NCBI RefSeq assembly: GCF_021513175.1
Contig: NZ_CP090953.1
Location: 806,001-870,000 of the forward strand
Source: Sphingomonas sp. S2-65
GTDB lineage: Bacteria > Pseudomonadota > Alphaproteobacteria > Sphingomonadales > Sphingomonadaceae
Length of the DNA stretch: 64,000 nt
Direction: 5' to 3'
Part shown: one piece after another, positions 14,664 to 52,149 of the stretch
Layout of the letters: the number at the start of each line of letters is the position of its first letter
How positions within the stretch are numbered: the first letter of the stretch is position 1
Program-made: the position numbers and the translations under genes
The notes under the pieces: generated by a model
The model's input: the letters and a program-made list of their open reading frames with translations, nothing else
What the model was told of the DNA's origin: nothing
Databases searched by the model: none

Positions 14664-15752
14664 ATGTCTCGCCTTAGCGCCCTTGCCGCGATCACGCTGT
14701 CGCTTGCCGGCGGCACTGCCCTTTACGCCCAGACCGCGCGCCAGGATGGCGACGCCACGCCGCCGCCGAACGCGCGCTATCTGTCGCAGCCGCTGACGCG
14801 CGAGATCTTCACCGCCGATCCCTCCGCGCATGTCTTCAACGGCCGCATCTATGTCTATCCCAGCCACGACATCGAATCCGGCGTGCCGGACGATGACCTG
14901 GGCACCCAATACGCGATGCGCGACTACCGGGTGCTGTCGATGGACCGGATCGGCGGCAAGGTGACGGTGCACCCCGTCGCGCTGGACGTGAAGGACGTGC
15001 CTTGGGCGTCGAAGCAGATGTGGGCGCCCGACGCCGCCTACAAGAACGGCACTTATTATCTCTACTTCCCCGCCCGAGATCCGCAGGGCGTGTTCCGCAT
15101 CGGCGTCGCGACCTCCAAGTCGCCGACGGGCCCGTTCAAGGCCGAACCCGAGGCGATCCGCGGCAGCTTCTCGATGGACCCGCAGGTGTTCACCGACAGC
15201 GACGGCCAGAGCTACATGTATTTCGGCGGCATCTGGGGCGGCCAGCTCCAGCGCTGGGCGACCGGCAGCTATGACCCGAATGGCGGCGATACCGACCTGA
15301 AGCAGGACGACAAGCCGGCGCTGTCGGCCAAGATCGCGCGGCTGGACGGCACCATGAAGCAGTTCGCCGAAGCGCCGCGCGACGTGCAGATCCTCGACGA
15401 AGCCGGCAAGCCGATCCTGGGCGGCGATCACCAGCGCCGCTTCTTCGAAGGCAGCTGGACCTTCAAGCGCGGCAACACCTATTACTTCACCTACTCGACC
15501 GGCGACACGCACATGCTGGCCTACGCCACCGGCACCACCCCCTATGGCCCGTTCAAGTTCCGCGGCCATTTCCTGAAGCCGGTGCAGGGCTGGACCACGC
15601 ATCACTCGGTCACCCAGGTCGGCGGCAAATGGTACCTGTTCTACCACGACACCCAGCGCTCGGGTAAGAACTACCTCCGCAACGTGAAGGTTACGCCGCT
15701 GACCTTCAACGCGGACGGCACGATCCAGATGATCGACCCGTTCGTCCGCTGA
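14664..15752 (+). CDS. GH43 glycoside hydrolase, first type (complete copy)
   Basis: A 362-residue secreted family 43 glycosidase (beta-xylosidase / alpha-arabinofuranosidase group). A signal peptide ends near ALYAQ (residue 23). The five-bladed propeller shows the three catalytic acids: base Asp52 in FTADPSAHVF, Asp172 in SMDPQVF and acid Glu262 in RFFEGSW. GGAGAAGGA precedes ATG 14664. The GH35 gene follows after two bases. The left border of the 18.6 kb duplication falls in codon 54, so this is the only whole copy: the second copy (33419 on) lacks the signal peptide and Asp52. Which pentose linkage it cuts is not clear from sequence. Confidence 0.92.
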   Translation: MSRLSALAAITLSLAGGTALYAQTARQDGDATPPPNARYLSQPLTREIFTADPSAHVFNGRIYVYPSHDIESGVPDDDLGTQYAMRDYRVLSMDRIGGKVTVHPVALDVKDVPWASKQMWAPDAAYKNGTYYLYFPARDPQGVFRIGVATSKSPTGPFKAEPEAIRGSFSMDPQVFTDSDGQSYMYFGGIWGGQLQRWATGSYDPNGGDTDLKQDDKPALSAKIARLDGTMKQFAEAPRDVQILDEAGKPILGGDHQRRFFEGSWTFKRGNTYYFTYSTGDTHMLAYATGTTPYGPFKFRGHFLKPVQGWTTHHSVTQVGGKWYLFYHDTQRSGKNYLRNVKVTPLTFNADGTIQMIDPFVR

Positions 15753-15754
15753 CC

Positions 15755-17395
15755 GTGCGGACCCGCACGATCATGGCCGGGGCGGCGCTGGCCGCCGCCC
15801 TTGCCGCCGGCGCCGCCCGAGCCGATCCGCCCGTGCTGGTGCGCCACGGCACCGCCACCCAGCTGCACGTCCAGGGCAAGCCGATGCTGCTGATCGCGGG
15901 CGAACTCGGCAATTCGAGCGCGTCCAGCCCGGTCTATATGGAGCCGCACTGGCCGCGGCTGCGCGCGCTGAACCTCAACACCGTGCTCGCGCCGATCCAA
16001 TGGGACATGATCGAGCCGCGCGAGGGGCAGTTCGACTGGAGCAGCGTCAACACGCTGATCCGCTCGGCACGCGCCAACGACCTGAAGATCGTGGTGCTGT
16101 GGTTCGGCGCCTACAAGAACAGCATGTCGACCTATGTGCCCGAATGGGTGAAGCGCGACGCGACGCGCTTTCCCCGCGCGCAGCGGCCCAACGGCCAGGG
16201 CGTCGAGATCCTGTCGGCGCATTCGCCCGAGATGATCGCCGCCGACGCGCGCGCCTTCGCCGCGCTGATGGCGCACATCCGCGCGACCGACGAACGCCAG
16301 CACACCGTGGTGATGACTCAGGTCGAGAACGAGATCGGCATGCTGCCGGTCGCGCGCGATTACGGCCCGCTGGCGCAGGCGGCTTGGCGCGAGCCGGTGC
16401 CGGCCGCGCTTACCCGCTACCTTTCCGAGCATCGCGCGTCGCTGGTGCCCGAGATGAAGCAATTGTGGGAGGATAACGGCGCCCGCACCAGCGGCAGCTG
16501 GACCGAGCTGTTCGGGCGCGGCGACGCCGCCGAGGAAGTGTTCACCGCGTGGCATTATGCGCGCTTCGCCGACGCGCTCACGCGCGCGGGCAAGGCGGCG
16601 TATGCGATGCCGATGTACGTCAACGTGGCGCTAAACCGCCCGGGCCGCGCACCCGGCGAGTATCCGAGCGGTGGCCCGCTGCCGCACCTGATCGATGTCT
16701 GGAAGGCCGGCGCGCCGTCGATCGACCTGCTGGCGCCCGACATCTATTTCCCGAACTTCACGCACATCGTCGACCTTTATACCCGGCCCGACAACCCGCT
16801 GTTCGTGCCCGAGGCGAACAACGCCGACCGCTTCGACGTACCGGCCAACGCCTTCTACGCCTTTGGCCAGAAGGACGCGATCGGCTTCGGCCCGTTCTCG
16901 ATCGAGTCGATCGACGCGGAGGCGAACCATCCGCTTGGCGCCGCTTATGGCGTGCTGCGCCAGCTGAGCCCCTATATTCTCGACGCACAGGGCACCGGGC
17001 GGATTGCCGGGTTCAAGCCGCATGCGCTGTATGACGAAACGCTGGTCTATGAACCCCAGGTACGCACCATCGGGGGCTACCGGTTCACCGTCGCGTTTGC
17101 CGACATCATCGCCCCCAAGGCCGGGCCCGACACGGGCAAGGCCGGCGGCATGATCATCCAGATCGGCCCGGAGGAATATCTGGTCGCCGGGCGCGGGATC
17201 ACCGTGACGGCCAAGCCGGTCGGGCAAGGTCCGGCGCTCGCCGGATTCGCCACGGCCGAGGAAGGCGTGTTCGACGCCCAGGGACGCTGGGTGCGCGGCC
17301 GGCTGCTAAATGGCGACCAGACTCACCAGGGCCGGCACATCCGCCTGAACGACGAATGGCAGATCCAGCGGATCAAGCTCTACCGTTACGATTGA
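15755..17395 (+). CDS. GH35-like beta-galactosidase with DUF5597-type C-terminus (copy 1)
   Basis: A 546-residue secreted glycosidase of the family 35 group common in sphingomonads and caulobacters. The start is GTG 15755, two bases after the GH43 stop, or ATG 15773; both leave a signal peptide ending AARAD. The barrel shows PIQWDMIEPREGQFDWS, the acid/base Glu193 in QVENEIG and the likely nucleophile Glu353 in LFVPEANN. The C-terminal 180 residues form a beta-rich domain of the DUF5597 kind. Members of this group are usually called beta-galactosidases; in a xylan/arabinoxylan locus it may remove terminal galactose or another side-chain sugar. This copy is uninterrupted, unlike the one at 34347. 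Confidence 0.85.
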   Translation: MRTRTIMAGAALAAALAAGAARADPPVLVRHGTATQLHVQGKPMLLIAGELGNSSASSPVYMEPHWPRLRALNLNTVLAPIQWDMIEPREGQFDWSSVNTLIRSARANDLKIVVLWFGAYKNSMSTYVPEWVKRDATRFPRAQRPNGQGVEILSAHSPEMIAADARAFAALMAHIRATDERQHTVVMTQVENEIGMLPVARDYGPLAQAAWREPVPAALTRYLSEHRASLVPEMKQLWEDNGARTSGSWTELFGRGDAAEEVFTAWHYARFADALTRAGKAAYAMPMYVNVALNRPGRAPGEYPSGGPLPHLIDVWKAGAPSIDLLAPDIYFPNFTHIVDLYTRPDNPLFVPEANNADRFDVPANAFYAFGQKDAIGFGPFSIESIDAEANHPLGAAYGVLRQLSPYILDAQGTGRIAGFKPHALYDETLVYEPQVRTIGGYRFTVAFADIIAPKAGPDTGKAGGMIIQIGPEEYLVAGRGITVTAKPVGQGPALAGFATAEEGVFDAQGRWVRGRLLNGDQTHQGRHIRLNDEWQIQRIKLYRYD

Positions 17396-17421
17396 CCGGC
17401 GCGGTCGGCACAGCCTGTCCT

Positions 17422-19730
17422 TCAAAGCAGCTTGTCGAGCGTGATCGGCAGGTCACGCACGCGCTTGCCGGTGGCGTTGAATACGGCGTTGGCGACCGCG
17501 GCGGCGACTCCGGTGATGCCGATCTCGCCGATCCCGCGCGCGCCCAGCGGCGAGCGCGGATCGGGAATGCCGGTCCACATCACTTCGATCTCCGGCACGT
17601 CCAGGTGCACGGGCACGTGATAGTCGGCGAGCGTCGCGTTCATGATCCGGCCGCTGCGTTCGTCGAACAGCGTTTCCTCGGTCAGCGCCAGCCCCAATCC
17701 CATGATCATGCCGCCGCGGAACTGGCTGGCGGCGGTCTTGGGGTTGAGGATCGTGCCGCAGTCGAACGAGCCGAGCAGGCGGTCGACGCGGATCTCCCCG
17801 GTCACGTCGCTCACCCGCAGCTCGCAGAACATCGCCGAGGTGCTGTGCATCGCGAATTTGAGCATCTCGAGCGGGGCGCTGCCGGTGCCGGTGACGGTCA
17901 CCGCGTCGCGGGCGGCGCGGGCCAGGATCGAGCGGTAGCTCTCGTGGCGCCCATTGTCCTCGGTCGAGGCGACTCCGCCGTCGATCAGCCGGACATCGGC
18001 CGCGCGCAGCCCGGCGAGTGGGCTGTCGTTGCCGGCGAGCCGAAGCAGCTCGCTCACGAGCTTGTCGGTGGCGGCCATGATCGCCGCGGCGATCGACACC
18101 GTCTGCGACGATCCCCCGCCATCGGCCCTGCCGGGAGCGCGGAATCGCCCATGTCGAAGCGGACCGCCTCGACCGGCAATCCGAGCCGGTCGGCGGCATG
18201 CTGGACCTGGACGGTGGCAGTGCCCATGCCCATCTCCTGCGCCGACGAGGCGAGCGTGGCCGACCCGTCGCCGTGCAGCGTCAGCCGGACATTGGCGCCG
18301 GGCATCCGCGCATAGGGAAGCTGCCGCTCGCGCAGCCCATGCCGATGCGCCATTCGCCCTCGCGGCGTGTGCCCGGGGTCGCCGCCCGCCGTTCCCAGCC
18401 GAACCGCGCCGCACCGTCGGCATAGGCCTTGGTCAGCGCGCGCTGCGAGAAGGCGTCGCCGTGGATCGGGTGGCGCTCGGGCTCGTTGCGGCGGCGCAGC
18501 TCGATCGGATCGATCGCCATCGCATGCGCGAGTTCGTCGACGGCGCACTCCACTGCGAAGGTGCCGATCGCCTCCCGGCGCGCGCATATAGGTGTTGGGA
18601 ACGATGGCGAGGTCGATGTGGCGCTGGACGATCTCGAAGCTCTTAGAACTGTACAGCGCCCGCGCGCTCAGGCTGAACTGCTCCGGGCAAGCGCCGTAAG
18701 TCGGCATGATCGAATAGCCGGTATGTATCAGCGCAGTGAACCGGCCGTCGGCGTCCGCGCCGAGCGCGACGCGCTGCTCGGATGGCGTGCGCCCGCCGAT
18801 CATGCGGTACACGCCCTCGCGGTCGAGCACGAGGCGGACCGGGCGCCCGGCCAGCCGCGCCGCCGCTATCGCTACGATCTGGTGGTCCCACAGGCCCTTG
18901 CCGCCAAAGCCGCCGCCCACAAACGGCGAAAGCACGCGGACCTGGCCGGGCTTTAGGCCGAACAGCTTCGCCAGCGCGTTGGCGCTGGGGGCGATCATCT
19001 GGGTGGCGTCGTGGACGAGCAGCGTGTCGCCGTCCCACGCGACCGTCACGCCGTGCAGCTCGATCGCATTGTGGTTGTGGCCGGGCGTGCGGTAGAGATT
19101 GTCCACCCGGTGCGCCGCGCGGCCCAGCTCGCGCTCGGCATCGCCCACCGACACCTGGTTCTTCTCGATCAGGATTGACGCCGGGGTGCGCGCCTGCGCC
19201 TTGGCTTCGTCGAAGCGAGTCTTGGCGGGTTCGGCCGCATAGTCGATCTCGATCAGCGACGCGGCATGGTCGGCCTGTTCCTGGGTCTCGGCGAGCACCG
19301 CCGCGACCACCTGCCCGTTATAATGGACCGCGTCGTCCTGCAGGATCGGCAGGCTGCTGTTGCCCACTGCGGAGAGGTTGGTGACTCCGATCAGGGGGAC
19401 CGGGCTGATGCGCGGCATGTTGCGATGGGTGACCACCAGGATCACTCCGGGCGCAGCCTCGGCGGCGGAGGTATCCAGGCGAGTCATCCGCCCGCGCGTG
19501 ATCGTGGCGTGCACCAGGCTCGCATAGCAAAGCCCCTCCATCGCCACTTCGGCGGCGAATTGTGCCCGGCCACCGACCTTTTCAGGCCCGTCCAGCCGCG
19601 AACCCTGCCGACCGATAGCCGCACTGCGTCCGATCAGCGGATCGGGCTTCCCGCCCGGCAGCCACTGCGCCGGCACCCAGCCCAGCGCGGTCTTGACCGA
19701 CGAAACGACGACGTTCTGCATCCGGCTCAT
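17422..19730 (-). pseudogene. paoC: PaoC-type molybdopterin subunit, frameshifted (copy 1)
   Basis: This is the molybdenum-cofactor subunit of an aldehyde oxidoreductase of the xanthine oxidase family. Recognisable parts are FVGGGFGGKGLWDHQI, the MRAPGEA stretch and, near the end, GARGIGEIGITG with the expected catalytic Glu. Against copy 2 the sequence lacks one C near 18117, one G near 18319 and CC near 18572, so three frameshifts break it. At the two places where copy 2 is broken this copy is whole, and merging the two gives a clean 770-residue gene (2313 bases). I therefore read the breaks as likely base-calling errors rather than decay. The start ATG 19730 overlaps the stop of the FAD-subunit gene by four bases. 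Confidence 0.85.
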
Positions 19731-20713
19731 CGGTCGTCTCCAGCAAGTTGCCCCAGCACGGCGGCCAGCGTGCGTGCCGCAAGTTCGATCTTGAAGGCGT
19801 TCCCCGGCAGCGGCGTCGCCTCGGCAAGTTCCGCTGCGGCCGCCGCGGCGAAGGCGTCCGGCGTAGCGGGGTTGCCGCGCAAGAACGCCTCCGCGCGGAG
19901 GGCACGCCACGGTTTGGTGCCGATGCCGCCAAAGGCGATGCGAACATCGTCGATGCGGCCATCCTGCATCGTCAGCCCTGCGGCGACCGACACCAGCGCG
20001 AAGGCGTAGCTCGCCCGGTCGCGAACCTTCCGATAGGACGAGCGCGCAAGCGTGGGTGCAGGCAGTTCGACTGCGACGATCACCTCCCCAGGCGAGAGCA
20101 TGGTCTCCTGGTCCGGCCGATCGCCGGGCAAGCGGTGGAAGTCGACCAGCGGGATGACCCTCGCCCCGCCCTGCCCCGCGACATGTACCACGGCGTCGAG
20201 TGCGACCAGCGCGACGCACATATCGGACGGGTGGGTGGCGATGCAGTCGGGCGAGGCGCCGAGAACGGCGTGGTAGCGGTTGAACCCGCCGATCGCGTCG
20301 CACCCACTGCCCGGCACACGCTTGTTGCAGCGGGAGCCCGCGGCATCCTGGAAATAGAGACAGCGCGTCCGCTGCATGAGATTTCCGCCGACCGTCGCCA
20401 TGTTGCGGATCTGCGCGGAGGCGCCGGCCAGCACCGCGCGCGCGAGCATGGGGTAGCGCTCGCGGACGATCGGATGCGCCGCCACGGCACTGTTGCGTGC
20501 CGAGGCTCCGATCATCAGCCCGCCCGCGGCACTCGGTTCGATGATGGTCGACACCATGCTGACATCGACCAGCCGGGTCGGCTGCTCGATGCCCTTGCGC
20601 ATCAAGTCGATCAGGTTCGTGCCGCCACCGAGCAGGCGGGCAGCCGCATCGCCCGATGCGAGACCTGCCGCGTCTTGGAACGATCCGGCGCGAAGATACG
20701 TCACCGGGTTCAT
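19727..20713 (-). CDS. paoB: PaoB-type FAD subunit of aldehyde oxidoreductase (copy 1)
   Basis: A 328-residue FAD-binding subunit of the CutM/CoxM family. FAD motifs are GGGTNLIDL (29-37) and ATVGGNLMQ (106-114). The insert with Cys118, Cys129, Cys138 and Cys157 (RCLYFQD, SRCNKR, GSGCDAIGG, PDCIATHPSD) matches the extra [4Fe-4S] cluster loop of E. coli PaoB (YagS) and is absent from ordinary CutM proteins. It passes electrons between the 2Fe-2S subunit and FAD. It overlaps its neighbours by four bases on both sides in the order 2Fe-2S, FAD, Mo subunit. Confidence 0.92.
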   Translation of the reverse strand: MNPVTYLRAGSFQDAAGLASGDAAARLLGGGTNLIDLMRKGIEQPTRLVDVSMVSTIIEPSAAGGLMIGASARNSAVAAHPIVRERYPMLARAVLAGASAQIRNMATVGGNLMQRTRCLYFQDAAGSRCNKRVPGSGCDAIGGFNRYHAVLGASPDCIATHPSDMCVALVALDAVVHVAGQGGARVIPLVDFHRLPGDRPDQETMLSPGEVIVAVELPAPTLARSSYRKVRDRASYAFALVSVAAGLTMQDGRIDDVRIAFGGIGTKPWRALRAEAFLRGNPATPDAFAAAAAAELAEATPLPGNAFKIELAARTLAAVLGQLAGDDR

Positions 20714-21213
20714 GCCACCCGCTCCCGCGCGACCTGGAGGATGGCATCGACGATGCCGTTATGCGCGCCGCATCGGCACAGATTGCCGCTCATCCGCTCG
20801 CGTATTTCCTCGCGCGAGATCGACGCATTCCCGGTCAGATCCGAAGTGACGTAGCTGGGCAGCCCAAGCTCGATCTCGCGGAGCATGGCGGTGGCCGCGC
20901 AGATCTGCCCCGGCGTGCAATAGCCGCATTGGAACCCGTCATGTTCGATGAACGCCGTCTGCAGCGGGTGCGGTTCGCTTTCGCTGCCCAGACCTTCGAT
21001 CGTCGTGACCTCCCGGCCGTCGACCTGCACGGCCAGGGTCAGGCAGGAAAGCACGCGCTCGCCGTCGATCAGGACGGTGCAGGCACCACAGGCACCCTGA
21101 TTGCAGCCGACCTTCGTGCCGGTGAGATGCAGCCGCTCTCGTAGCAGGTCGAGCAACGAGACACGGGCATCCTCGGGCGGCGCAACCGCTGCGCCGTTGA
21201 TCATGATCGCCAT
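20710..21213 (-). CDS. paoA: PaoA-type 2Fe-2S subunit of aldehyde oxidoreductase (copy 1)
   Basis: A 167-residue iron-sulfur subunit. Cys37, 42, 45 and 57 (VGCNQGACGACT...SCLT) hold the plant-ferredoxin type cluster; Cys96, 99, 146 and 148 (QCGYCTPGQICAA...NLCRCGAHNG) hold the second. GGAGG lies seven bases before ATG 21213, preferred over the longer frame from 21240. Unlike E. coli PaoA no twin-arginine leader is seen, so the enzyme may stay in the cytoplasm. The complex should oxidise aldehydes to acids; aromatic aldehydes are the known substrates of PaoABC. A MarR gene sits directly upstream on the same strand. Confidence 0.92.
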   Translation of the reverse strand: MAIMINGAAVAPPEDARVSLLDLLRERLHLTGTKVGCNQGACGACTVLIDGERVLSCLTLAVQVDGREVTTIEGLGSESEPHPLQTAFIEHDGFQCGYCTPGQICAATAMLREIELGLPSYVTSDLTGNASISREEIRERMSGNLCRCGAHNGIVDAILQVARERVA

Positions 21214-21264
21214 CACCGTTCCTCCGGCCGGACGCACCAATCGCGTCCGCAGGGTTAGGATACA

Positions 21265-21275
21265 ACGAATTTCGT
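21265..21275 (-). promoter_or_regulatory. Inverted repeat in the pao promoter, possible MarR site
   Basis: ACGAA-T-TTCGT is a perfect 5-bp inverted repeat in the 67-base gap between the MarR gene and paoA, 52 bases before the paoA start. The TTCGAA-like core resembles MarR-family operators. It is kept in copy 2 at 39852-39862. Confidence 0.4.
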
Positions 21276-21280
21276 ACTAT

Positions 21281-21712
21281 TCAATCGTCGTTCGATGCAA
21301 TCTTCTGGAGCATCCCGATCAGGCTGTCGCGTTCGGCAGTCGATAGCGGCTCCAACATCCTGTCGTAGAGCTGGCGATGCGCGGCGCGGATATCGACGAC
21401 ACATGCCTCTCCTTCGGCAGAGAGCGCCAGCGCGACGGCACGGCGATCGCCCTCCGCGCGCCGCCGCGCGAGCAGGCCGCGCTTGACGAGCCGGTCGGTA
21501 GCCGAGGTGATGGTGGTATTGGCCACGCCCAGGAAGCGTGCGACGTCGCTGGGGCCGCAGCCTGGCTGATCGGCGACGTAGAGCAGCGTCTGCTTGTCGA
21601 GCTCGTTCAGCGACTTGCCCGCGCCGGCGGCGTCGACCAGCTTGTACCGGCGCGTGAACGTGTCGAACACCGCGCCAAGTGCAGCAATCTGGTCGTCAGT
21701 CGGCTTCGTCAT
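21281..21712 (-). CDS. MarR-family transcriptional regulator (copy 1)
   Basis: A 143-residue winged-helix regulator. The recognition region is DVARFLGVANTTITSATDRLVKRGLLARRRAEGDRRAVAL, with the wing DRR/AEGDRR typical of MarR. The preferred start is ATG 21712 (MTKPTDDQIAALG); an in-frame GTG at 21778 would add 22 residues and neither has a strong ribosome site. It is upstream of and co-directional with the pao genes, so it probably controls them, perhaps in response to a phenolic ligand as is usual for the family. Copy 2 is identical in sequence. Confidence 0.9.
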   Translation of the reverse strand: MTKPTDDQIAALGAVFDTFTRRYKLVDAAGAGKSLNELDKQTLLYVADQPGCGPSDVARFLGVANTTITSATDRLVKRGLLARRRAEGDRRAVALALSAEGEACVVDIRAAHRQLYDRMLEPLSTAERDSLIGMLQKIASNDD

Positions 21713-21815
21713 GAGGGCCGCATAGCGTGCTTCGCGCTCGGCTGGCCAGACTTGGCGGCAGTCTCCCCAAAGGTTCACTCCTGAACCTGGCGGAGGATGT
21801 TGCCGCAGTCACCGA

Positions 21816-23456
21816 TCAGGAAGACAGCCAGGTATACGGCCCTACCAGCGTGCCGACAAAGCCCGTCGCGGTCTTCGTGCTGAGAAACCTGGCGTCCAGA
21901 TCGCTTTTCAGCGTCTTGGAAGCGCCCGATTCCGCATAGAGGAAGGCCATCGTGCCGCCGTCCGTTCGGATCGTCAGGGTCACCGGCGCGCTTGTCGCCA
22001 GCGGGGCCGTCGCGATCAGCCGCTCCTTGCCGTCCTCGCTCGCATAGAGCGCGACGCACGCCTGTCCTTCCAGGCGCGTCACGCCGAAGAACAGGTAATT
22101 GCGATCGCTCTGCATCGCGGCCAGACCGGCCCTGTCGCCATCCTTGTCGGGTGTGAACCGCACCGTCGTGCTCATCGTCGCGCGGTGATGCTGCTGGCGG
22201 CGGGCGACGAACCCGGGAACGCCCGACAAGTCCCCCAGGCGGGCCCCCGAATTGAGCACCAGATCGCCACCGTCGAGCCGGTAGAGCCGCGTCTTGGGCG
22301 TCCGCACCCCGATCCAGGCGAGGCCCAGTCGGGTGCCGTCGAATTCGTCGGCATAGGCGAAGTCGCCGCTGGTCGGCAGCGCCGCGCGGGGCTGGGCCGG
22401 CAGTCCGGGCTTGGGTGCGACGAACGGGATCGCCTTCCCCTTGGGCAGAATGATCGGCCATCCGTCGCGCCAGGTGACCGGGAGCAGGAAGGTTTCGCGA
22501 CCGATATTGTAATAGTCGCCTGCATAGGGGCGCACCGCGAGGAAGGTGGCCCACCAATCGCCGTTCTGCGTCTGGACGAGCTTCGCATGGCCTGCCGAGG
22601 TGATCGGGTTCGGCCGGGTGGGATCCAGGTCGCGCTGCGTCAGGATCGGATTGCCGGCGAATGCGGCATACGGACCACGCAGCGTGCGGGACCGCAGCAC
22701 GACCTGCGAATGGTTGACGCTGGTGCCGCCTTCGGCCGCGGTCAGATAGTACCACCCGCCACGGCGCAGGATATGGGGTCCTTCGATCCACACCGGCTTC
22801 TTGGTGATGTCGACGCCGCCGTTTACGAGCTGCGTCGATTCGCCGACCATCTTGCCCGTGCGCCAGTCGAACTCCTGGATCCAGATCGCGCGGTGTCCGT
22901 CATAGCGGGGCGGTTCGGCGGGCGCTCGGTTGTTGACGATATAGGCGCGGTCGCCCTCCCAATGGATTGACGGGTCGATGCCCTCGAACGGAAGCCAGGT
23001 CGGATCGGACCAGGGACCCGCGGGGTCCTTCGCCGTAATCACGAAGTTGCCGCCGCAGCCGACACAGGTGTTGGCGATGTAGAAGGTGCCGCCATGATAT
23101 GAGATGTCGGGCGCGAACACCGCCTCGGACGTGCGCTTGCCCGTGAAATCCAGCTGCCCGGGACGGTCGATCGCGTTGCCGATCTGGGTCCAGTTCACCA
23201 GATCCTTCGACCGGAAGATCGGCAGCCCGGGGAAGTGCGCGAAGGAGGAGAGCACCAGGTAATAATCGTCGCCGACGCGCGTGACCGACGGGTCGGGATA
23301 ATAGCCCGACACGATCGGGTTGCGATACTGCCCCGGCAACGCGGTTGCCTGCTCCTGGCTCTGTCCTTCATAGGCGAACCGGCTGAAGCGCGGGAGGTCG
23401 CTAGCCGCAGCCGAAGTGGCGGCCAGGGCGGCCGCAAGCGCAAGCAGACGAAGCAC
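21816..23456 (-). CDS. GH43 glycoside hydrolase, second type with C-terminal beta-sandwich (copy 1)
   Basis: A 546-residue secreted family 43 enzyme, unrelated in detail to the GH43 at 14664. Signal peptide residues 1-19 (LALAAALAATSAAAS). Catalytic acids: Asp55 in GYYPDPSVTR, Asp161 in EGIDPSIHW, Glu225 in VWIEGPHIL. The C-terminal 200 residues (from about 335) form the beta-sandwich found in xylosidase-type GH43 (FAYADEFDGTRLGLAWIGVR). GTG 23456 with AAGGAG five to ten bases upstream is a better start than the ATG at 23537. It is divergent from the second TonB receptor and shares its promoter region, which holds the 24-bp palindrome. Substrate is likely xylo- or arabino-oligosaccharide. This copy is intact; copy 2 has lost one C. 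Confidence 0.92.
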   Translation of the reverse strand: MLRLLALAAALAATSAAASDLPRFSRFAYEGQSQEQATALPGQYRNPIVSGYYPDPSVTRVGDDYYLVLSSFAHFPGLPIFRSKDLVNWTQIGNAIDRPGQLDFTGKRTSEAVFAPDISYHGGTFYIANTCVGCGGNFVITAKDPAGPWSDPTWLPFEGIDPSIHWEGDRAYIVNNRAPAEPPRYDGHRAIWIQEFDWRTGKMVGESTQLVNGGVDITKKPVWIEGPHILRRGGWYYLTAAEGGTSVNHSQVVLRSRTLRGPYAAFAGNPILTQRDLDPTRPNPITSAGHAKLVQTQNGDWWATFLAVRPYAGDYYNIGRETFLLPVTWRDGWPIILPKGKAIPFVAPKPGLPAQPRAALPTSGDFAYADEFDGTRLGLAWIGVRTPKTRLYRLDGGDLVLNSGARLGDLSGVPGFVARRQQHHRATMSTTVRFTPDKDGDRAGLAAMQSDRNYLFFGVTRLEGQACVALYASEDGKERLIATAPLATSAPVTLTIRTDGGTMAFLYAESGASKTLKSDLDARFLSTKTATGFVGTLVGPYTWLSS

Positions 23457-23532
23457 GTGTCTCTCCTTGTTCGTGCCGGATCCCGGCTTCGCGCGGAGCA
23501 TAGGCAGCGATCGCGCATCCATGAAACCGCAT

Positions 23533-23556
23533 TTCATTCACACGCGCGTTAGTGAA
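23533..23556 (+). promoter_or_regulatory. 24-bp palindromic operator, GH43/TonB receptor divergent promoter
   Basis: TTCATTCAC, six bases, GTTAGTGAA. The same two 9-base arms with the same spacing recur in front of the SDR gene at 31226-31249, on the other side of the operon. The site lies two bases upstream of a likely -35 box for the TonB receptor. The TetR encoded at 30542 is the best candidate to bind both. Confidence 0.7.
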
Positions 23557-23558
23557 CG

Positions 23559-23585
23559 TTGACAAGCCCCTGCGATCGCTGCAAC
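23559..23585 (+). promoter_or_regulatory. Predicted promoter of the second TonB receptor operon
   Basis: TTGACA (23559-23564), a 13-base spacer and GCTGCAAC (23578-23585) match the alphaproteobacterial consensus TTGAC-N10-14-GCTANAWC at seven of eight -10 positions. It is 50 bases before the receptor start and directly follows the palindromic operator. Confidence 0.6.
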
Positions 23586-23634
23586 CTCAGGATCAAGCCG
23601 GCACGCAGATGATCGGCAAACATGGAGAGAGAGC

Positions 23635-25960: not shown

Positions 25961-25963
25961 TCG

Positions 25964-30490: not shown

Positions 30491-30541
30491 GCGCTTCCGC
30501 GCGGCTTGACGCCCGCACGCGCAGGACCGAAGAACATTCGC

Positions 30542-31220: not shown

Positions 31221-31225
31221 AATCG

Positions 31226-34344: not shown

Positions 34345-34346
34345 CC

Positions 34347-35981: not shown

Positions 35982-36007
35982 CCGGCGCGGTCGGCACAGC
36001 CTGTCCT

Positions 36008-39801: not shown

Positions 39802-39851
39802 CACCGTTCCTCCGGCCGGACGCACCAATCGCGTCCGCAGGGTTAGATACA

Positions 39852-39862
39852 ACGAATTTCGT
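39852..39862 (-). promoter_or_regulatory. Inverted repeat in the pao promoter (copy 2)
   Basis: ACGAA-T-TTCGT, as at 21265-21275, between MarR and paoA. Confidence 0.4.
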
Positions 39863-39867
39863 ACTAT

Positions 39868-40299
39868 TCAATCGTCGTTCGATGCAATCTTCTGGAGCAT
39901 CCCGATCAGGCTGTCGCGTTCGGCAGTCGATAGCGGCTCCAACATCCTGTCGTAGAGCTGGCGATGCGCGGCGCGGATATCGACGACACATGCCTCTCCT
40001 TCGGCAGAGAGCGCCAGCGCGACGGCACGGCGATCGCCCTCCGCGCGCCGCCGCGCGAGCAGGCCGCGCTTGACGAGCCGGTCGGTAGCCGAGGTGATGG
40101 TGGTATTGGCCACGCCCAGGAAGCGTGCGACGTCGCTGGGGCCGCAGCCTGGCTGATCGGCGACGTAGAGCAGCGTCTGCTTGTCGAGCTCGTTCAGCGA
40201 CTTGCCCGCGCCGGCGGCGTCGACCAGCTTGTACCGGCGCGTGAACGTGTCGAACACCGCGCCAAGTGCAGCAATCTGGTCGTCAGTCGGCTTCGTCAT
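39868..40299 (-). CDS. MarR-family transcriptional regulator (copy 2)
   Basis: The 143-residue protein is identical to copy 1 (21281-21712), with the winged-helix region and AEGDRR wing. The same start uncertainty applies (ATG 40299 or GTG 40365). Confidence 0.9.
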   Translation of the reverse strand: MTKPTDDQIAALGAVFDTFTRRYKLVDAAGAGKSLNELDKQTLLYVADQPGCGPSDVARFLGVANTTITSATDRLVKRGLLARRRAEGDRRAVALALSAEGEACVVDIRAAHRQLYDRMLEPLSTAERDSLIGMLQKIASNDD

Positions 40300-40402
40300 G
40301 AGGGCCGCATAGCGTGCTTCGCGCTCGGCTGGCCAGACTTGGCGGCAGTCTCCCCAAAGGTTCACTCCTGAACCTGGCGGAGGATGTTGCCGCAGTCACC
40401 GA

Positions 40403-42042: not shown

Positions 42043-42118
42043 GTGTCTCTCCTTGTTCGTGCCGGATCCCGGCTTCGCGCGGAGCATAGGCAGCGATCGC
42101 GCATCCATGAAACCGCAT

Positions 42119-42171
42119 TTCATTCACACGCGCGTTAGTGAACGTTGACAAGCCCCTGCGATCGCTGCAAC
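42119..42171 (+). promoter_or_regulatory. Palindromic operator and promoter of the second TonB receptor (copy 2)
   Basis: The 24-bp palindrome (42119-42142) and the predicted promoter TTGACA-N13-GCTGCAAC (42145-42171) are unchanged from copy 1. Confidence 0.65.
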
Positions 42172-42222
42172 CTCAGGATCAAGCCGGCACGCAGATGATC
42201 GGCAAACATGGAGAGAGAGAGC

Positions 42223-44550: not shown

Positions 44551-44553
44551 TCG

Positions 44554-45873
44554 GTGAGCGCCGCTTCCACCTCCTCGACGTCCGCGCCGGAACTCGACAC
44601 CGCACGCGCGCGGCCGCCCTGGTTCGTGCTGGCGGCGCTCACCTTCGTCTACATCCTCAACTTCCTGGATCGCCAGCTGATCGGCATCCTCGCCAAGCCG
44701 ATTCAGGACTCGCTGCAAGTCACCGATGGCCAGCTCGGGCTGATCGGCGGGCTGTATTTCGCGATGTTCTATTGCTTCATCGCCATTCCGGTAGGCTGGC
44801 TGGCGGACCGCACCAACCGGGTGCGGGTGCTCTCCCTCGCCTGCGCGATCTGGAGCGGCGCCACGACGGCCTGCGGCCTTGCCGCCAGCTATCCTCAGCT
44901 TGTGGCGGCGCGGATGATGGTCGGCTTCGGCGAGGCGGGCGGGGTTCCGCCGTCCTACGCGATCATCACCGACACCTACCCGCCGGGCAAGCGTGCGGCG
45001 GCGATCGGCATCTTCAATCTCGGACCCGCGATCGGCGCCGCCGCCGGCGTGGCCTTTGGCGCCTCGATTGCCGAGCGCTTCGGCTGGCGCATGCCGTTCA
45101 TCGTCGTCGGCGGGATCGGCATCCTCACTGCCGTGCTGGTCTGGCTGTTCATCCGTGAGCCCGAACGCGGCGCGACCGATGCCGTGCGCAGCGGCGACGC
45201 GTCGGAAAAGGCTCTGTTCTGGCCGACGCTGCGGATGTTCTTCTCGCAGCCGATCCTGATGCTCGCGGCGCTGGGCAGCGGCGCCACGCAGTTCGTCACC
45301 TACGGCCTGGGCAATTTCGCCGTGCTGTTCCTGATGCGCGAAAAGGGGATGGTGCTGGGCGAAGTCGCAATCTGGTACGCGCTGGTGCTCGCGCTCGGCA
45401 TGGGCGGCGGCATGGTGCTTTCCGGCCGCGTGATTGACCGCATGACCCGGCGGTCGCGCACCGGCTATGCGATCGCCCCGGCGGTATCGCTCGCCATCGC
45501 CATGCCCTTCTACCTCGCCTTTGTCTGGGCGCCGAGCTGGCCGCTCGCGCTGGTGCTGCTCGCGGTCGTGATGACCTTCAACTACTTCTATCTCTCGGCC
45601 TCGGTCGCGCTGGTGCAGGAGGAAGTGAAGCCCAACCAGCGGGTGCTATCCGGCGCGCTGTTGCTGCTGGTGATGAACTTCATCGGCCTCGGCCTCGGCC
45701 CCACCTGGGTCGGCGCGGCGAGCGACTGGTTCAAGGCGCAGGGCGACGCGCATGGCCTGCAATCGGCGCTCTACACGCTCACACCCTTCTATTTCCTCGC
45801 CATCGCGCTCTTCCTCTGGCTCGCGCGGTTGCTGCGCCGCGAGGGGCCCAACCCGGTCCAGGTTCCCGCATGA
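44554..45873 (+). CDS. MFS transporter, spinster-like (copy 2)
   Basis: The 439-residue protein is identical to copy 1 (25964-27283). It starts with GTG four bases after the receptor stop and overlaps the esterase start by four bases. Confidence 0.9.
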   Translation: MSAASTSSTSAPELDTARARPPWFVLAALTFVYILNFLDRQLIGILAKPIQDSLQVTDGQLGLIGGLYFAMFYCFIAIPVGWLADRTNRVRVLSLACAIWSGATTACGLAASYPQLVAARMMVGFGEAGGVPPSYAIITDTYPPGKRAAAIGIFNLGPAIGAAAGVAFGASIAERFGWRMPFIVVGGIGILTAVLVWLFIREPERGATDAVRSGDASEKALFWPTLRMFFSQPILMLAALGSGATQFVTYGLGNFAVLFLMREKGMVLGEVAIWYALVLALGMGGGMVLSGRVIDRMTRRSRTGYAIAPAVSLAIAMPFYLAFVWAPSWPLALVLLAVVMTFNYFYLSASVALVQEEVKPNQRVLSGALLLLVMNFIGLGLGPTWVGAASDWFKAQGDAHGLQSALYTLTPFYFLAIALFLWLARLLRREGPNPVQVPA

Positions 45874-47498
45874 AACAGCTTCCCTCTGCCGCGTTCGCGG
45901 CATGCCTCCTCGCCGCCAGCCCCGCACTGGCCCAGTCGCCCATCGTCGATGCACCGGCGGGAAGGCTGGAGGGCAGCGCCGAAGGCACGCTCCGGCTGTT
46001 CAAGGGCATCCCCTATACCCAGCCGCCGGTGGGCGCGAAGCGCTGGCAGGCGCCGGCGCCGCTGCCGGCTTGGCCGGGCGTCCGCAAGGCGACCAGCTTC
46101 GGCCCCGCCTGCGTCCAGCCGCGCCCGAAGATCGCCGGCATCTACACCAACCCGCCCGAGCGGATGAGCGAGGACTGCCTGACGCTCAACGTCTGGGCGC
46201 CCAGGAACGCCGGCAAGCTGCCGGTGTTCGTCTGGATCCACGGCGGCGCGCTGGTCTCGGGCTACAGCCATGAGGGGATGTACGACGGCGCGCGCATGGC
46301 CGCGCGCGGCATGATCGTCGTCTCGATCAACTATCGGCTGGGCATCCTCGGCTACCTCGCCCATCCCGGTCTCAGCGCGGAATCGCCCGAGGGCATCTCG
46401 GGCAATTACGGCCTGCTCGACCAGATCGCGGCGCTCCGCTGGGTGAAGGACAATATCGGCGCGTTCGGCGGCGATGCTGCCAACGTCACGGTCGCAGGCG
46501 AATCCGCCGGCGGGCTGAGCGTGATGTACCTGATGGCGAGCCCGCGGGCGCGCGGCCTGTTTCAGCGGGCGATCGCCCAGAGCGCCTATATGATTTCCGC
46601 GCCAGACCTGAAGACGGCGCGCAACGGCACGCCTTCGGCCGAAGCGGCCGGCACGCTGGCGATGACCGCGCTCGGCGCCGCCGACCTTGCCGGCCTGCGG
46701 GCGATGGACGCCGAAAAGCTCACCAGCGATGCCGCGGGCAAGGGCTATGGCCCCTGGGGCACGGTCGACGGCAAGATACTGCCCCGGCAGCTGGCCGAGA
46801 CCTGGGATCGCGGCGAACAGGCGCCGGTACCAATATTGGCCGGCTTCAACAGCGGCGAAATCCGCTCGCTGCGTGTCCTCCTCCCCCCGGCCCCCGCCGA
46901 TGCCGCCGCCTATGAAACGGCGATCCGCGCCCGCTATGGCGATCTGGCGGACGCGTTCCTGCGCCTCTACCCGTCGAACGCGATCGGCGAGAGCATGCTC
47001 GCCACCACCCGCGACGCGCTCTACGGCTGGACCTCGACGCGCCTCGCCCTTGGCCAGACCGCGATCGGCCAGCGCGGCTATCTCTATCTTTTCGATCATG
47101 GCTATCCGGCTACCGACGACAACGGGCTGCACGCCTTCCACGCGTCGGAGATCCCCTATGTCTTCGGCACCGCCGGCCGCACCCCGGCGCTGTGGCCCAA
47201 GGTGCCGGACACCCCCGCCGAGCGACGGATGTCGGACGCGATGATGGGCTATTGGTCCTCCTTCGCGAAGACCGGCACGCCCGCCGCGAACGGCCAGCCG
47301 ACGTGGCAGCCCTATGGCAAGGAAGGGCATTATATGGCCTTTGCCCAGGCGCCGCGCCCGGGCACCAAGCTGTTCCCCGGCATGTTCGCGCTGCACGAGG
47401 CGGCGGTCTGCCGCCGGCGCGCCGCCGGCGATCAGCCCTGGAACTGGAACACCGGCATCGCCTCTCCCGTGCTCAAGAAGACGGAAGGGTGCCGATGA
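45870..47498 (+). CDS. Type-B carboxylesterase (complete copy)
   Basis: A 542-residue secreted alpha/beta-hydrolase of the carboxylesterase type-B family. Signal peptide to residue 22 (SPALAQ), oxyanion-hole motif HGGA (124-127), nucleophile Ser212 in GESAGG, and the FHASEIPYVFG stretch with the catalytic-histidine region. Cys81 and Cys103 (SEDCLTLNVW) form the family's usual disulfide. It should act in the periplasm on an ester brought in by the TonB receptor, giving an acid that the adjacent ligase could activate. Feruloyl or other plant-wall esters would suit the locus, but the substrate is an inference. The end overlaps the ligase start (ATGA at 47495-47498). Confidence 0.9.
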   Translation: MKQLPSAAFAACLLAASPALAQSPIVDAPAGRLEGSAEGTLRLFKGIPYTQPPVGAKRWQAPAPLPAWPGVRKATSFGPACVQPRPKIAGIYTNPPERMSEDCLTLNVWAPRNAGKLPVFVWIHGGALVSGYSHEGMYDGARMAARGMIVVSINYRLGILGYLAHPGLSAESPEGISGNYGLLDQIAALRWVKDNIGAFGGDAANVTVAGESAGGLSVMYLMASPRARGLFQRAIAQSAYMISAPDLKTARNGTPSAEAAGTLAMTALGAADLAGLRAMDAEKLTSDAAGKGYGPWGTVDGKILPRQLAETWDRGEQAPVPILAGFNSGEIRSLRVLLPPAPADAAAYETAIRARYGDLADAFLRLYPSNAIGESMLATTRDALYGWTSTRLALGQTAIGQRGYLYLFDHGYPATDDNGLHAFHASEIPYVFGTAGRTPALWPKVPDTPAERRMSDAMMGYWSSFAKTGTPAANGQPTWQPYGKEGHYMAFAQAPRPGTKLFPGMFALHEAAVCRRRAAGDQPWNWNTGIASPVLKKTEGCR

Positions 47499-49084
47499 TC
47501 GACGGGAGCATGCAGGATTATCCGCTCACCCTCGACAAGTTCCTGGATCACGCCGCCAAATGGCACCCGCATGCACAGGTCGTCACTGCGTGTGAGGACG
47601 GCGCCAGCCAGCGGATCGGCTATGCCGAACTGCGGACGCGGGCGCTGGCGGTTTCCTCGATCCTCGCGGATCTCGGCACGCGCCTGGGTGACCGCGTCGC
47701 GACGCTCGCCTGGAACAGCCAGGCGCATGTCGAGGCCTGGTACGGCGTGATGGGCATGGGTGCGGTCTGCCACACCCTCAACCCGCGCCTCACTGCGGTC
47801 CAGCTTGCCGCGATGCTCCGCCAGTCGCAGGCGAAGCTGCTGATCGCCAGCGCCGACCTGCTGCCGCTCGCCTTGCGGATCGTCGAGGAAGGCGCGCCGA
47901 TCGGCCAGATCCTGGTGATCGACGGCGATGCCGGTGTGACCGCAACTCCGACGCGGATACCCGTCAGCGCATTGGCGCCGATGATCGCGACGGCGTCGTC
48001 CGACATCGCCTGGGGCGGCTTCGCGGAGACGACGCCGTCCGGCCTGTGCTTCACTTCGGGCACCACCGGCGCGCCCAAGGGCGTCACCTACACGCACCGC
48101 TCGAGCTTCCTCCATACCCTGCGCCTGCTTCAGGTCGACGTCATGGCGATCTCGGGCGGCGACGCGGTTCTCGCGGTGGTGCCGATGTTCCATGCCAATG
48201 CCTGGGGCTTGCCCTTCGCGCTTCCGGCCGCCGGCGGCAAGCTGGTGCTGCCCGGCCGCTATAATGACGGCGCCAGCCTGGCGCGGCTGATCGCGTCGGA
48301 AGGCGTGACCGTCGGTGTCGGCGTGCCGACCGTCTGGCTCGGCGTCGCCGAGCATCTCGAGGCCACCGGGGGCACCCTGCCCTCGCTGAAGCGGATCATC
48401 GTCGGCGGCGCGCCGCTGCCGCCGGCGCTGATGGAGCGGATCGAACAGCGCCTAGGCGTCACCGTCCAGACCAGTTGGGGCATGACCGAGCTGTCCCCCT
48501 CGGGCACCGTCGCGCTGCCGGGCGACCCGCAACGTTCCGCCGCCTATTCCGGCAAGCCGGCGATCGGCGTGGACCTCCGCCTCACCGATGCCGATGGGCG
48601 GCCGCTGCCCGATCAGCGCGGCCTCGAGGGGCATCTGCACGTCCGCGGCGCCGCCGTGATCGAACGCTATTTCGGTCACGACGAAAGCGCCACCGACGCA
48701 GAGGGTTGGTTCGCCACCGGCGACCTGGCCCGCATCGAAGCCGATGGGAACCTGATCATCACCGGGCGCGCCAAGGACCTGATCAAGTCGGGCGGCGAGT
48801 GGATCAACCCTGCCGAGATCGAGGCGGTCGTCGGCGCGCTTCCGCAAGTCTCGCTCGCCGCCGTGATCGGAAGGCCGGACGCGAAATGGGGCGAGCGTCC
48901 GCTCCTGCTGGTCGAGGTGCGCGCCGAGCAGGACGTGAGCGACGAGGCGCTGCTCGCCTCGCTTCGTGGACGGGTCGCACCGTGGTGGATACCCGATGCG
49001 GTCGTTCGCCTGGCAAGCATGCCGCTGGCACCGACGGGGAAGATCGACAAGGTTCGCTTGCGCTCGCAATATGCGCATGCGTGA
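47495..49084 (+). CDS. Acyl-CoA synthetase, AMP-forming (complete copy)
   Basis: A 529-residue member of the ANL (AMP-ligase) superfamily. The ATP-binding loop is FTSGTTGAPKGVTYTH, followed by TSWGMTE, and the C-terminal hinge and lysine regions are GWFATGDLARIEADGNLIITGRAKDLIKSGGEWINP and PTGKIDK. GAVCHTLNPRL resembles the medium-chain / AlkK-DmdB subgroup. It should join a carboxylic acid to CoA in the cytoplasm, after hydrolysis by the esterase encoded just upstream and before oxidation by the SDR downstream. Chain type (fatty or phenylpropanoid) cannot be told from sequence. In copy 1 it is frameshifted. Confidence 0.92.
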   Translation: MIDGSMQDYPLTLDKFLDHAAKWHPHAQVVTACEDGASQRIGYAELRTRALAVSSILADLGTRLGDRVATLAWNSQAHVEAWYGVMGMGAVCHTLNPRLTAVQLAAMLRQSQAKLLIASADLLPLALRIVEEGAPIGQILVIDGDAGVTATPTRIPVSALAPMIATASSDIAWGGFAETTPSGLCFTSGTTGAPKGVTYTHRSSFLHTLRLLQVDVMAISGGDAVLAVVPMFHANAWGLPFALPAAGGKLVLPGRYNDGASLARLIASEGVTVGVGVPTVWLGVAEHLEATGGTLPSLKRIIVGGAPLPPALMERIEQRLGVTVQTSWGMTELSPSGTVALPGDPQRSAAYSGKPAIGVDLRLTDADGRPLPDQRGLEGHLHVRGAAVIERYFGHDESATDAEGWFATGDLARIEADGNLIITGRAKDLIKSGGEWINPAEIEAVVGALPQVSLAAVIGRPDAKWGERPLLLVEVRAEQDVSDEALLASLRGRVAPWWIPDAVVRLASMPLAPTGKIDKVRLRSQYAHA

Positions 49085-49135
49085 GCGCTTCCGCGCGGCT
49101 TGACGCCCGCACGCGCAGGACCGAAGAACATTCGC

Positions 49136-49816
49136 GTGCAAGAGAATGTCAAACCCGCGCGACGCTCCAAAAAGGCCGAACAGCGCGCCGAAACCATGGA
49201 TCTGATCCTCGACTCCGCCGAGTATCTCTTCTCCAAGCATGGTCTCTACGGCGTCACGCTCAAGGACGTCGCCAAGCGCGTCGGCGTCCACCACACGCTG
49301 TTGAACTATTATTTCGAAGACAAGAACAAGCTTTTCCAGGCGGTGTTCGCCCGCCGCGCGGTGGTGACCAGCGAGCGGCGGATGCAGGCGCTCGACGATT
49401 ATGAGGCGCTCTGCAAGGACACGCCGACCGTCGAGGGCGCGCTGCGCGCCTTTCTCGATACCGATCTCGATCTGTATATCGAGGGGGGAGAAGCCTGGAA
49501 GAACTATGCCGCGCTGGGCGCACAGGTCGCCAACACGCCGGAGTGGGGTGCCGAGCTGATGGACGAGCATTTCGATCCCGTCGTGCTGCGGCTGATCGCA
49601 CTGCTCAAGAAAGCCCTGCCCGACTGCGCGGAACAGGACATTTTCTGGGGCTATCACTTCGTGACCGGCGCCTTGATGCTCACGCTCGCGCGCACCGGCC
49701 GGATCGACAAATTGTCGCACGGATTGTGCAAATCGGACGATTTCGTCGCGGTTAAGGAGCGAATGGCGTCGTTTATGGCGGCCGGTTTCCTCGAAATCTG
49801 CAAGCCGGCGCGCTGA
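49136..49816 (+). CDS. TetR-family regulator 1 (complete copy)
   Basis: A 226-residue TetR regulator. Helix-turn-helix at about 38-60 (VTLKDVAKRVGVHHTLLNYYF), then an all-helical ligand domain. The start GTG 49136 has a weak GAAGAA site; a TTG at 49100 is possible. It is the last gene of the TonB receptor operon and lies between the two copies of the 24-bp palindrome, so it probably represses both the receptor/GH43 promoter and the SDR promoter. An acyl-CoA effector would be in keeping with related FadR-like TetR proteins, but this is inferred. Confidence 0.88.
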   Translation: MQENVKPARRSKKAEQRAETMDLILDSAEYLFSKHGLYGVTLKDVAKRVGVHHTLLNYYFEDKNKLFQAVFARRAVVTSERRMQALDDYEALCKDTPTVEGALRAFLDTDLDLYIEGGEAWKNYAALGAQVANTPEWGAELMDEHFDPVVLRLIALLKKALPDCAEQDIFWGYHFVTGALMLTLARTGRIDKLSHGLCKSDDFVAVKERMASFMAAGFLEICKPAR

Positions 49817-49821
49817 AATCG

Positions 49822-49845
49822 TTCATTCACTCTCTTGTTAGTGAA
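49822..49845 (+). promoter_or_regulatory. 24-bp palindromic operator before the SDR gene (copy 2)
   Basis: TTCATTCAC, six bases, GTTAGTGAA, as at 31226-31249. Confidence 0.7.
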
Positions 49846-49890
49846 ATTGGGTTGCGGTACGCTCCGGCAAAACAAGGAGAGGCACCGTTG

Positions 49891-50781
49891 ATGGAACTGG
49901 AAGGTCGCGTAGCGCTCGTCACAGGCGCAGGCGGGGACTCGGGCGCGCACGCTCTCTACCTCGCCAGCAAGGGCGCGAAGCTGGTCGTCAACGATGTCTC
50001 CGAAGAGAGTTCCGCTCGGGTCGCATCCGAGATCGAGGCGGCGGGAGGGCAAGCAATGCCCGCCGCCGCCTCGGTAACCGATGAGCTCGGCGTCAACCAG
50101 ATCGTCAACCAGGCTCTGGAACGCTGGAATCGCATAGACATTCTAGTCAACAACGCCGGCATCCTGCGCGACAAGAGCTTCGCCAAAATGACCATGGACG
50201 AGTTCCGCCTGGTGGTGGACGTCCACCTGATGGGCGCCGCCATCTGCTCCAAGGCGGTCTGGGAAATCATGCGCAGCCAGCTTTATGGCCGCATCGTCAT
50301 GACCACCTCGTCGTCGGGTCTCTACGGCAATTTCGGCCAGGCCAATTACGGCGCTGCCAAGATGGCGCTGGTCGGCCTCATGCAGACCCTGGCTATCGAA
50401 GGTGAGAAATACGGCATCCGCGTCAACGCCCTCGCCCCCACTGCCGCGACTCAGATGACTCACGGCGTCCTGTCCGACGAAAGCCTGACGCATCTCGACC
50501 CGAGCCTGGTGAGCCCCGGCTTGCTCGCACTCGTCGGCGAAGCCGCGCCGACCCGGGCGATCCTGTGCGCCGGCGCCGGCCATTTCGCGCGGGCGAACGT
50601 CACGCTCACCGAAGGCGTGTTCATCGGCAGAGGTGAGAATTCCGGCGAACAGCTCGTGAACCAGTGGGACGCCGCAAGCGACCGGACGGGCGAGATCGTT
50701 CCGGCATACGGCTTCTTACAGGCCGAACGGGAACTGGCGAGTGCCGGCTCGTCCAGCGAAGCGATGGCAGTCACACGCTGA
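49891..50781 (+). pseudogene. Short-chain dehydrogenase, altered glycine motif (copy 2)
   Basis: Copy 2 of the gene at 31295. One G and then CA are missing near 49936-49950, so TGAGGGLGRAHAL becomes TGAGGDSGAHAL: the frame is restored, but the cofactor-binding loop loses one residue and the order of its glycines. The remaining 280 residues, including Tyr and Lys of the active site, are unchanged. As it stands cofactor binding would be doubtful; copy 1 is the more credible version. Confidence 0.8.
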
Positions 50782-50849
50782 CGAACCATATTGGCGCTGC
50801 CGCGTAAGCCACTGGACTTCTGCGCTGTCGGGCTTATGTACCGATCATT

Positions 50850-51500
50850 ATGAAAATGGGTTGCGCAGTAAGAGGTCGCCCGCGCGAGTTTGATCCGGAG
50901 ACGGCGCTCGCCGCGGCGCTTCGCGTCTTCTGGAGCAAGGGCTATGAAGGCGCGTCGCTCAGCGACTTGACGGAGGCTATGGGGATCACCCGGCCCAGCC
51001 TGTACGCCTCGTTCGGCAACAAGGAAGCGCTCTTCAAGATGGCGCTCGATCTCTACGAGCGCGAGAAACTCGACTATATCGGCGAGGCACTGAAAGAGAG
51101 GACGGCGCGTCAAGTCGCCGAGCATCTTTTGCGCAGCGCGCTCGAGATGCAGATGAGCAACTGCGATCCGAAAGGCTGCATGGGCGTGATCAACGCCGTG
51201 GCCTGCGGAGCCGAAGCCGAATCGATACGCGCGGAAGTGATCGAACGCGGACGCCTGGCCAAGCACGGGATTATCGCTCGGTTCGAGCGCGCGAAGGCGG
51301 AGGGCGACCTTCCGGCCGACAGCGACGCCGTAGGACTGACCAGCTATCTGACGGCGATCATGCAGGGACTTGCCGTCCAGGCTGGTGCGGGCTTCCTGCA
51401 CCGACCTGAAGGCGCTGATCGACACCAGTCTGGCGATGTGGCCTGGTGGCAAGAATTAGCCGCTCGTTTCGGGATCGACAAAAAATACCGTACGGTATAA
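50850..51500 (+). pseudogene. TetR/AcrR-family regulator 2, frameshifted tail (copy 2)
   Basis: Copy 2 of the regulator at 32257. AG is missing near 51392 (GCGGGCTTCC for GCGGGAGCTTCC), so the last 23 residues are replaced by 36 unrelated ones and the frame runs on into the first operator. DNA-binding and most of the ligand domain are the same. This is the copy that sits next to the efflux operon, so whether the indel is real matters for pump control. Confidence 0.82.
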
Positions 51501-51545
51501 AAAGCAGTTGACCGGCGGCCGAGCTCTTTCTATACCGTGCAGTAT
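51485..51545 (+). promoter_or_regulatory. Efflux operon promoter with two TetR operators (copy 2)
   Basis: ATACCGTACGGTAT at 51485-51498 and ATACCGTGCAGTAT at 51532-51545 flank TTGACC (51508-51513), 17 bases, TATACC (51531-51536). The second operator covers the -10 box. The promoter is 224 bases before the small gene that opens the RND operon; the leader 51546-51759 shows no gene. Confidence 0.72.
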
Positions 51546-51759
51546 AGAAGATCGGGAACTACCGCAGCGCTGAACGGGACGATGTCACCAGGCGGCGCTT
51601 CAGCAGAAGGATGAGAGGGCGAGTAGCGGGCCGTGGGATATGTCCTGCGCGGCCAGTCTCCTCGCGCCTCGTCAAGACAATGACCAGCAGGCTGGTGGAA
51701 GGGGTTCCACGCAGCGCGAGGACGTGCGCCTCGCCTGGTCGGACAGGAGGAAGCGAGAC

Positions 51760-52149
51760 ATGGCGTATCTGAACTTTAGCGAATTGCAGGGCAGCCCCGT
51801 TGCTGCGCCCGCCGATGTGATGGCTGCCGCCGGCCTGAGCGCGCTCGAATGGTCGGTCGTAGCCCTTGCTCAGAAGGATCGGCTCTCCAGCCTGAAGACC
51901 CCTGGGCGCATGTCGATGGCAATGGGCGTGATCTTCGGCAAGCAGAGCGCCAACCCGCAACTGGCGGATCCCAGGCTGGAGGCACTACGCCGGATGTCCG
52001 TGCTTGCATGGCATCACGGCTTTGCCGTGCCACGCCACGAAATCCGCCAATTCCACGAAGCCGGCTTCACTGCGGACCAATATGAGATGCTGCTTGCGAG
52101 CGTGAGCCAAGGCCGCTCGGCCCTGAATCAGGGGAACCGGATCCGATGA
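51760..52149 (+). CDS. Small protein of unknown function opening the efflux operon
   Basis: A 129-residue soluble protein I do not recognise. GGAGG lies seven to twelve bases before ATG 51760. No signal peptide or membrane segment is seen; it is mostly helical in character with a central SALEWSVVALAQKDRL and a histidine-bearing AWHHGFAVPRHEIRQFHEAGF. Its stop overlaps the adaptor start by four bases (ATGA), so it is translated with the pump. It lies between TetR-controlled promoter and pump genes, which suggests a part in pump function or sensing of the pump substrate, but nothing in the sequence proves that. The duplication ends within codon 83; this is the whole version. Confidence 0.75.
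   Translation: MAYLNFSELQGSPVAAPADVMAAAGLSALEWSVVALAQKDRLSSLKTPGRMSMAMGVIFGKQSANPQLADPRLEALRRMSVLAWHHGFAVPRHEIRQFHEAGFTADQYEMLLASVSQGRSALNQGNRIR

Follow-up and report, generated by a model that had tools for sequence, protein, structure and literature searches.

An 18.6 kb direct tandem in the Sphingomonas sp. S2-65 chromosome is probably an untrimmed contig-end overlap

The window analysed here (a stretch of 64,000 nucleotides, positions 806001-870000 of the single contig of a genome scored 100% complete) contains a direct repeat without spacer, in which, after realignment of the window, copy A (18,593 b) is followed immediately by copy B (18,591 b). According to the open reading frames, the Pfam matches and a codon model, each copy comprises 12 whole genes and two genes cut by its edges (a GH43 gene on the left and a gene for an uncharacterised protein on the right; Table 1), which fits the twelve whole and two partial genes counted in the initial annotation. 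The GH43 protein at the left edge has its best named matches in Sphingomonas. The left flank carries GH67, GH3, LacI and TonB genes, the right flank an HlyD/RND/OEP efflux set, and no mobile-element domains were found among the 30 window proteins scanned. Near the start of the window (253-2780), a Cupin_8 gene is followed by a gene for a tryptophan-halogenase-family flavoprotein, with GDSL, LacI, TonB and GH67 genes downstream, in a plant-polysaccharide region. The uncharacterised protein at the right edge has no Pfam or NCBIfam match; it has 626 homologues, and among the best 120 of these the named ones are mostly Sphingomonas hypothetical proteins, three being assigned to the alkylhydroperoxidase family. 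In three genomes (G004, G002 and G314), its homologue is flanked by a TetR gene and an HlyD gene.

Table 1 Coordinates of the repeat and its genes in the window
Feature	Position	Strand	Remarks
Copy A	14825..33417	+	Self-BLAST and realignment; on the best reading, end of the original linear contig
Copy B	33418..52008	+	Self-BLAST and realignment; on the best reading, start of the original linear contig
Junction A/B	33417..33418	.	Cut copy of the 51640-52149 gene fused to cut GH43 gene
GH43 gene over left edge	14568..15752	+	Whole here; in B 5'-truncated and frame-broken
GH35-family (DUF5597) gene	15755..17395	+	B lacks TT (no polarity reading) and CTTT (B broken)
Molybdopterin aldehyde oxidase/xanthine dehydrogenase-type large subunit	17425..20747	-	Breaks at three sites in A and two in B
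[2Fe-2S] small subunit	20710..21240	-	
MarR-family regulator	21281..21778	-	
GH43 beta-xylosidase-type gene	21816..23537	-	A intact, B broken
TonB-dependent receptor	23635..25960	+	A broken at 23889; B whole (42208-44550)
MFS transporter	25964..27283	+	
Carboxylesterase	27280..28907	+	A split at 27911; B whole (45870-47498)
AMP-binding acyl-CoA ligase	28898..30490	+	A broken (29180, 29775) by codon model; B whole
TetR-family regulator, first	30506..31220	+	A broken at 30889 by codon model; B whole (49100-49816)
SDR	31256..32188	+	B lacks G and CA, 16 bases apart (net -3)
TetR-family regulator, second	32257..32868	+	A intact, B broken (51391)
Uncharacterised protein gene over right edge	51640..52149	+	Whole here; A copy truncated at junction

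The single off-diagonal match in a self-BLAST of the window pairs 14825-33424 with 33418-52014, and both this match and the realignment agree with the first description of about 18.6 kb present twice, end to end. With a length of 18.6 kb and an identity of 99.8%, chance is excluded as the source of the repeat. A 2 kb probe taken from inside the copy matched the 3,797,930 b contig twice over its full length and twice more, weakly, over short stretches, and a left-flank probe gave one match in the same contig. The copies differ by one substitution (15166/33758) and 19 indel events, 30 bases in total and each of 1, 2 or 4 b, close to the one substitution and about 18 indels counted initially; bases are missing from A at 9 places and from B at 10. 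Inspected by eye, 13 of the 19 indels lie in single-base runs (12 of G or C, one of A), three in GA or CA repeats and three in neither context, so that the earlier placing of the indels in G/C runs holds for 12 of them, but not for the remaining 7.

Real divergence leaves mostly substitutions, whereas a low-coverage or unpolished long-read consensus leaves missing bases. The polarity of each indel was read by comparing 720 b around it, in both copies, with the open reading frames of relatives. This comparison was clear at 10 of 19 indels, and in 10/10 the frame-broken copy is the copy that is missing bases: in coordinates of A, B is broken at 15131, 16168, 17510, 19123, 22244 and 32798, and A at 18113, 18315, 18574 and 27911, with dissenting homologue rows at five of the ten sites (185:10 at 15131, 19:1 at 16168, 39:2 at 22244, 38:1 at 18315 and 37:2 at 18574). 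A codon-usage hidden Markov model (HMM) adds four sites, all with A broken (23889, 29180, 29775 and 30889), bringing the total to 14 of 19 indels read, with the broken copy being the one short of bases at that site in 14/14. Two further sites, 31337 and 31353, lean weakly the same way (4:0 and 3:0 of 13 rows), and 15801, 21258 and 23625 gave no polarity reading. The HMM placed no break at the same place in both copies. Copy B is also judged wrong at substitution 33758, because its residue is absent from all 105 matched stretches of relatives (98 S, 4 A and 3 T, some genomes being represented more than once). Taken as a whole, the differences between A and B look like consensus errors, not evolution.

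A strict scan counted frame breaks outside gene-boundary-like places, of which the repeat had 7, the flanks 3 and the genome sample 53. The repeat (37.2 kb) gave 9 such breaks, the window flanks (26.8 kb) 0 and a 396 kb sample of the rest of the genome 4; the strict rate is thus ~24-fold higher in the repeat than in the genome sample. With the looser codon HMM, the repeat has 13 breaks and the junction one more, the flanks have 0, and the 396 kb sample has 29 as raw calls. The four strict frameshift-like places in the sample (L109 at 1262, L110 at 12653, and L117 at 8450 and 12584) are possible pseudogenes or residual errors. As for the intended rRNA polishing control, RF00177 (16S) had no match in this genome and, of 14 control genomes, matched only 9, perhaps because rRNA is masked in the genome collection. 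The initial annotation had left two readings side by side: either a true repeat with an unpolished long-read consensus, or a duplicate made by the assembly. Its unpolished consensus is well supported, since the errors are missing bases, are concentrated in the repeat and fall at different places in each copy, but the evidence favours the assembly duplicate over the true repeat, and favours it in a form unnamed there, the untrimmed start/end overlap of a circular contig.

Probes across the two outer edges and the junction were compared with 295 same-genus genomes, the own genome included, with two places scored per genome. Among the matches listed, the left edge is crossed continuously in G244 (84%) and G084 (76%), over ~2.3 kb in both, and over shorter stretches in G314, G212 and G104; the whole 2.2 kb right-edge probe is aligned through in G314, G085, G242 and G218, and partly in more genomes. 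Among the matches listed for the junction probe, none outside the own genome crosses 33417/33418: these outside matches end at query base 602-618 or begin at base 619 at the least, the junction being at 618/619. In G314 and G244, each side of the junction has its match on a separate contig, and the repeat interior is not beside either edge, save for the inner GH43 gene in G244. The search for a single-copy layout in relatives, proposed at the outset, recovered continuous outer edges, but the examined stretches of G314 and G244 did not contain the whole one-copy island. Continuity of the outer edges in relatives is expected under an artefact and a real duplication alike.

At the junction itself, microhomology amounts to 0 bp forward and 0 bp backward, and the longest direct match between the two edge regions is 9 b, compared with a mean longest match of 9.4 in shuffled sequence. 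Breakpoint microhomology or shared repeats are common in true bacterial tandem duplication, but not obligatory. For Salmonella, one study gives five of eight tested duplication junctions as verified and a deduced cut-off of 11 b of microhomology; only junctions with ~7 b or more of microhomology were screened there, and a 0 b join would have escaped this screen (PMC3411829). Bacterial duplications independent of homology have been reported as well (PMC11111574). Because of this bias in the screen and these homology-independent cases, the missing microhomology weighs little.

The reading that we prefer, with a probability of about three in four, is that the tandem is an assembly artefact, the untrimmed overlap of a circular contig, and that the true layout has one copy. 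A long-read assembler would have given one linear contig for the circular chromosome, and this contig would have run past its own start, leaving ~18.6 kb at both ends. The ends would then have been joined with the overlap left in and the circle rotated to dnaA, so that the overlap would now be an internal direct tandem, with 33417 as the old contig end and 33418 as the old contig start. The two copies would be independent, poorly polished consensus sequences of one locus, which would account for missing bases being almost their sole difference. We infer the sequencing platform, the untrimmed join and the single copy in the cell; joining the ends untrimmed and then rotating the circle gives a direct tandem of unpolished copies that meet without homology. 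The contig starts with dnaA (TIGR00362, 467 bits, profile match from ~base 156), and the last 20 kb of the record show no match to its first 20 kb; the record has therefore been rotated, and its original ends are internal, unless the contig happened to open at dnaA. According to the Circlator paper, the linear contig assembled from a circular molecule often has ends that overlap and are near-identical and of low quality (PMC4699355), and an assembler benchmark describes Canu and NextDenovo as usually leaving an overlap of thousands of bases, its size being correlated with read N50 (PMC6966772).

The placing of the errors along the copies gives a less simple picture. Their mean distance from the junction is 8.2 kb versus 9.3 kb expected (P 0.18), and a test for A errors lying later in the copy than B errors gives P 0.22; the errors do not clearly pile up towards the junction, which is against the simplest contig-end model. 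Of B's 10 deletions, 3 fall together with the sole substitution in its first 1.35 kb, the putative contig start, a concentration noticed after the fact. Three A errors lie within 462 b of one another, 3.3-3.7 kb from the left flank and far from the junction, and three B errors lie no more than 2.1 kb from the right flank; reads anchored in the flanks should have corrected both of these clusters. Along the copies, the errors also come in alternating blocks (BBBBAAABBBAAAAAABBB; a permutation test on the 5 runs gives P 0.008, and P 0.012 if two adjacent B sites count as one), as if one copy drew the reads in each stretch, and such blocks could arise from an artefact or from a real duplication.

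A real and recent 18.6 kb tandem duplication by illegitimate recombination appears unlikely. The copies would be identical in the cell, and the differences would be unpolished long-read errors left by ambiguous mapping; polishing could likewise fail where a repeat exceeds the read length. The direct tandem arrangement, the outer edges that run on into the flanks and the lack of a clear gradient of errors towards the junction all agree with such an event, homology-independent duplications have the precedent given above, and an extra dose of a coherent plant-polysaccharide/ester gene set is conceivable. However, the join is without microhomology, and resolving identical copies of 18.6 kb would need reads of >18.6 kb, which should also permit polishing. 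Junction-crossing reads, moreover, should polish both sides of the join, yet the start of B is error-rich. A genuine homology-free duplication of this plant-polysaccharide/ester catabolic island, fixed or segregating in the culture, is put at no better than a minor chance; if genuine, it would double the dose of the GH35, GH43, Mo-dependent oxidase, TonB receptor, MFS, carboxylesterase and acyl-CoA ligase genes, and would be reversible by recombination.

Another kind of assembly duplicate, made by a chimeric read or a graph error within the contig and not at its ends, would explain the unpolished copies and the homology-free junction equally well, but it needs an accidental chimera, whereas end overlap is frequent for circular contigs (PMC4699355, PMC6966772); we regard it as improbable. 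An older biological duplication, whose copies truly diverged by indels into pseudogenes and to which the frame-broken genes in both copies of the deposited sequence might be ascribed, is scarcely credible given 19 indels against one substitution, spread over both copies and confined to such short lengths, and a strict frame-break rate so much lower in the genome sample.

Because the evidence favours an assembly duplicate, the double dose of an arabinoxylan module envisaged in the initial annotation becomes less likely. If the tandem is indeed an untrimmed overlap, ~18.6 kb of a genome with a perfect completeness score is false sequence: a dozen genes are wrongly shown twice, A and B alike contain spurious frameshifts, one junction is chimeric, and studies of gene dosage or pseudogenes in the strain would be misled. 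The locus is then of low biological interest and of use as an assembly quality flag. The same combination of features (missing-base frame breaks that are complementary between copies and rare outside the repeat, a join without homology, and outer edges that relatives share) could serve to screen finished genomes for other such cases.

Compared with known systems, the tandem resembles the spontaneous RecA-independent tandem duplications of bacteria described in PMC3411829 and PMC11111574, in being a head-to-tail repeat in the size range of tens of kb and in having a novel junction that joins two unique sequences; unlike them, it has no microhomology, and its copies differ by missing bases of the consensus type. 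With respect to untrimmed contig overlaps as portrayed in PMC4699355 and PMC6966772, it differs in that the overlap lies inside a finished record and in that its errors show no clear rise towards the ends, but it shares with them a near-identical, low-quality direct repeat of kilobase size in a chromosome-sized contig, which here starts at dnaA.
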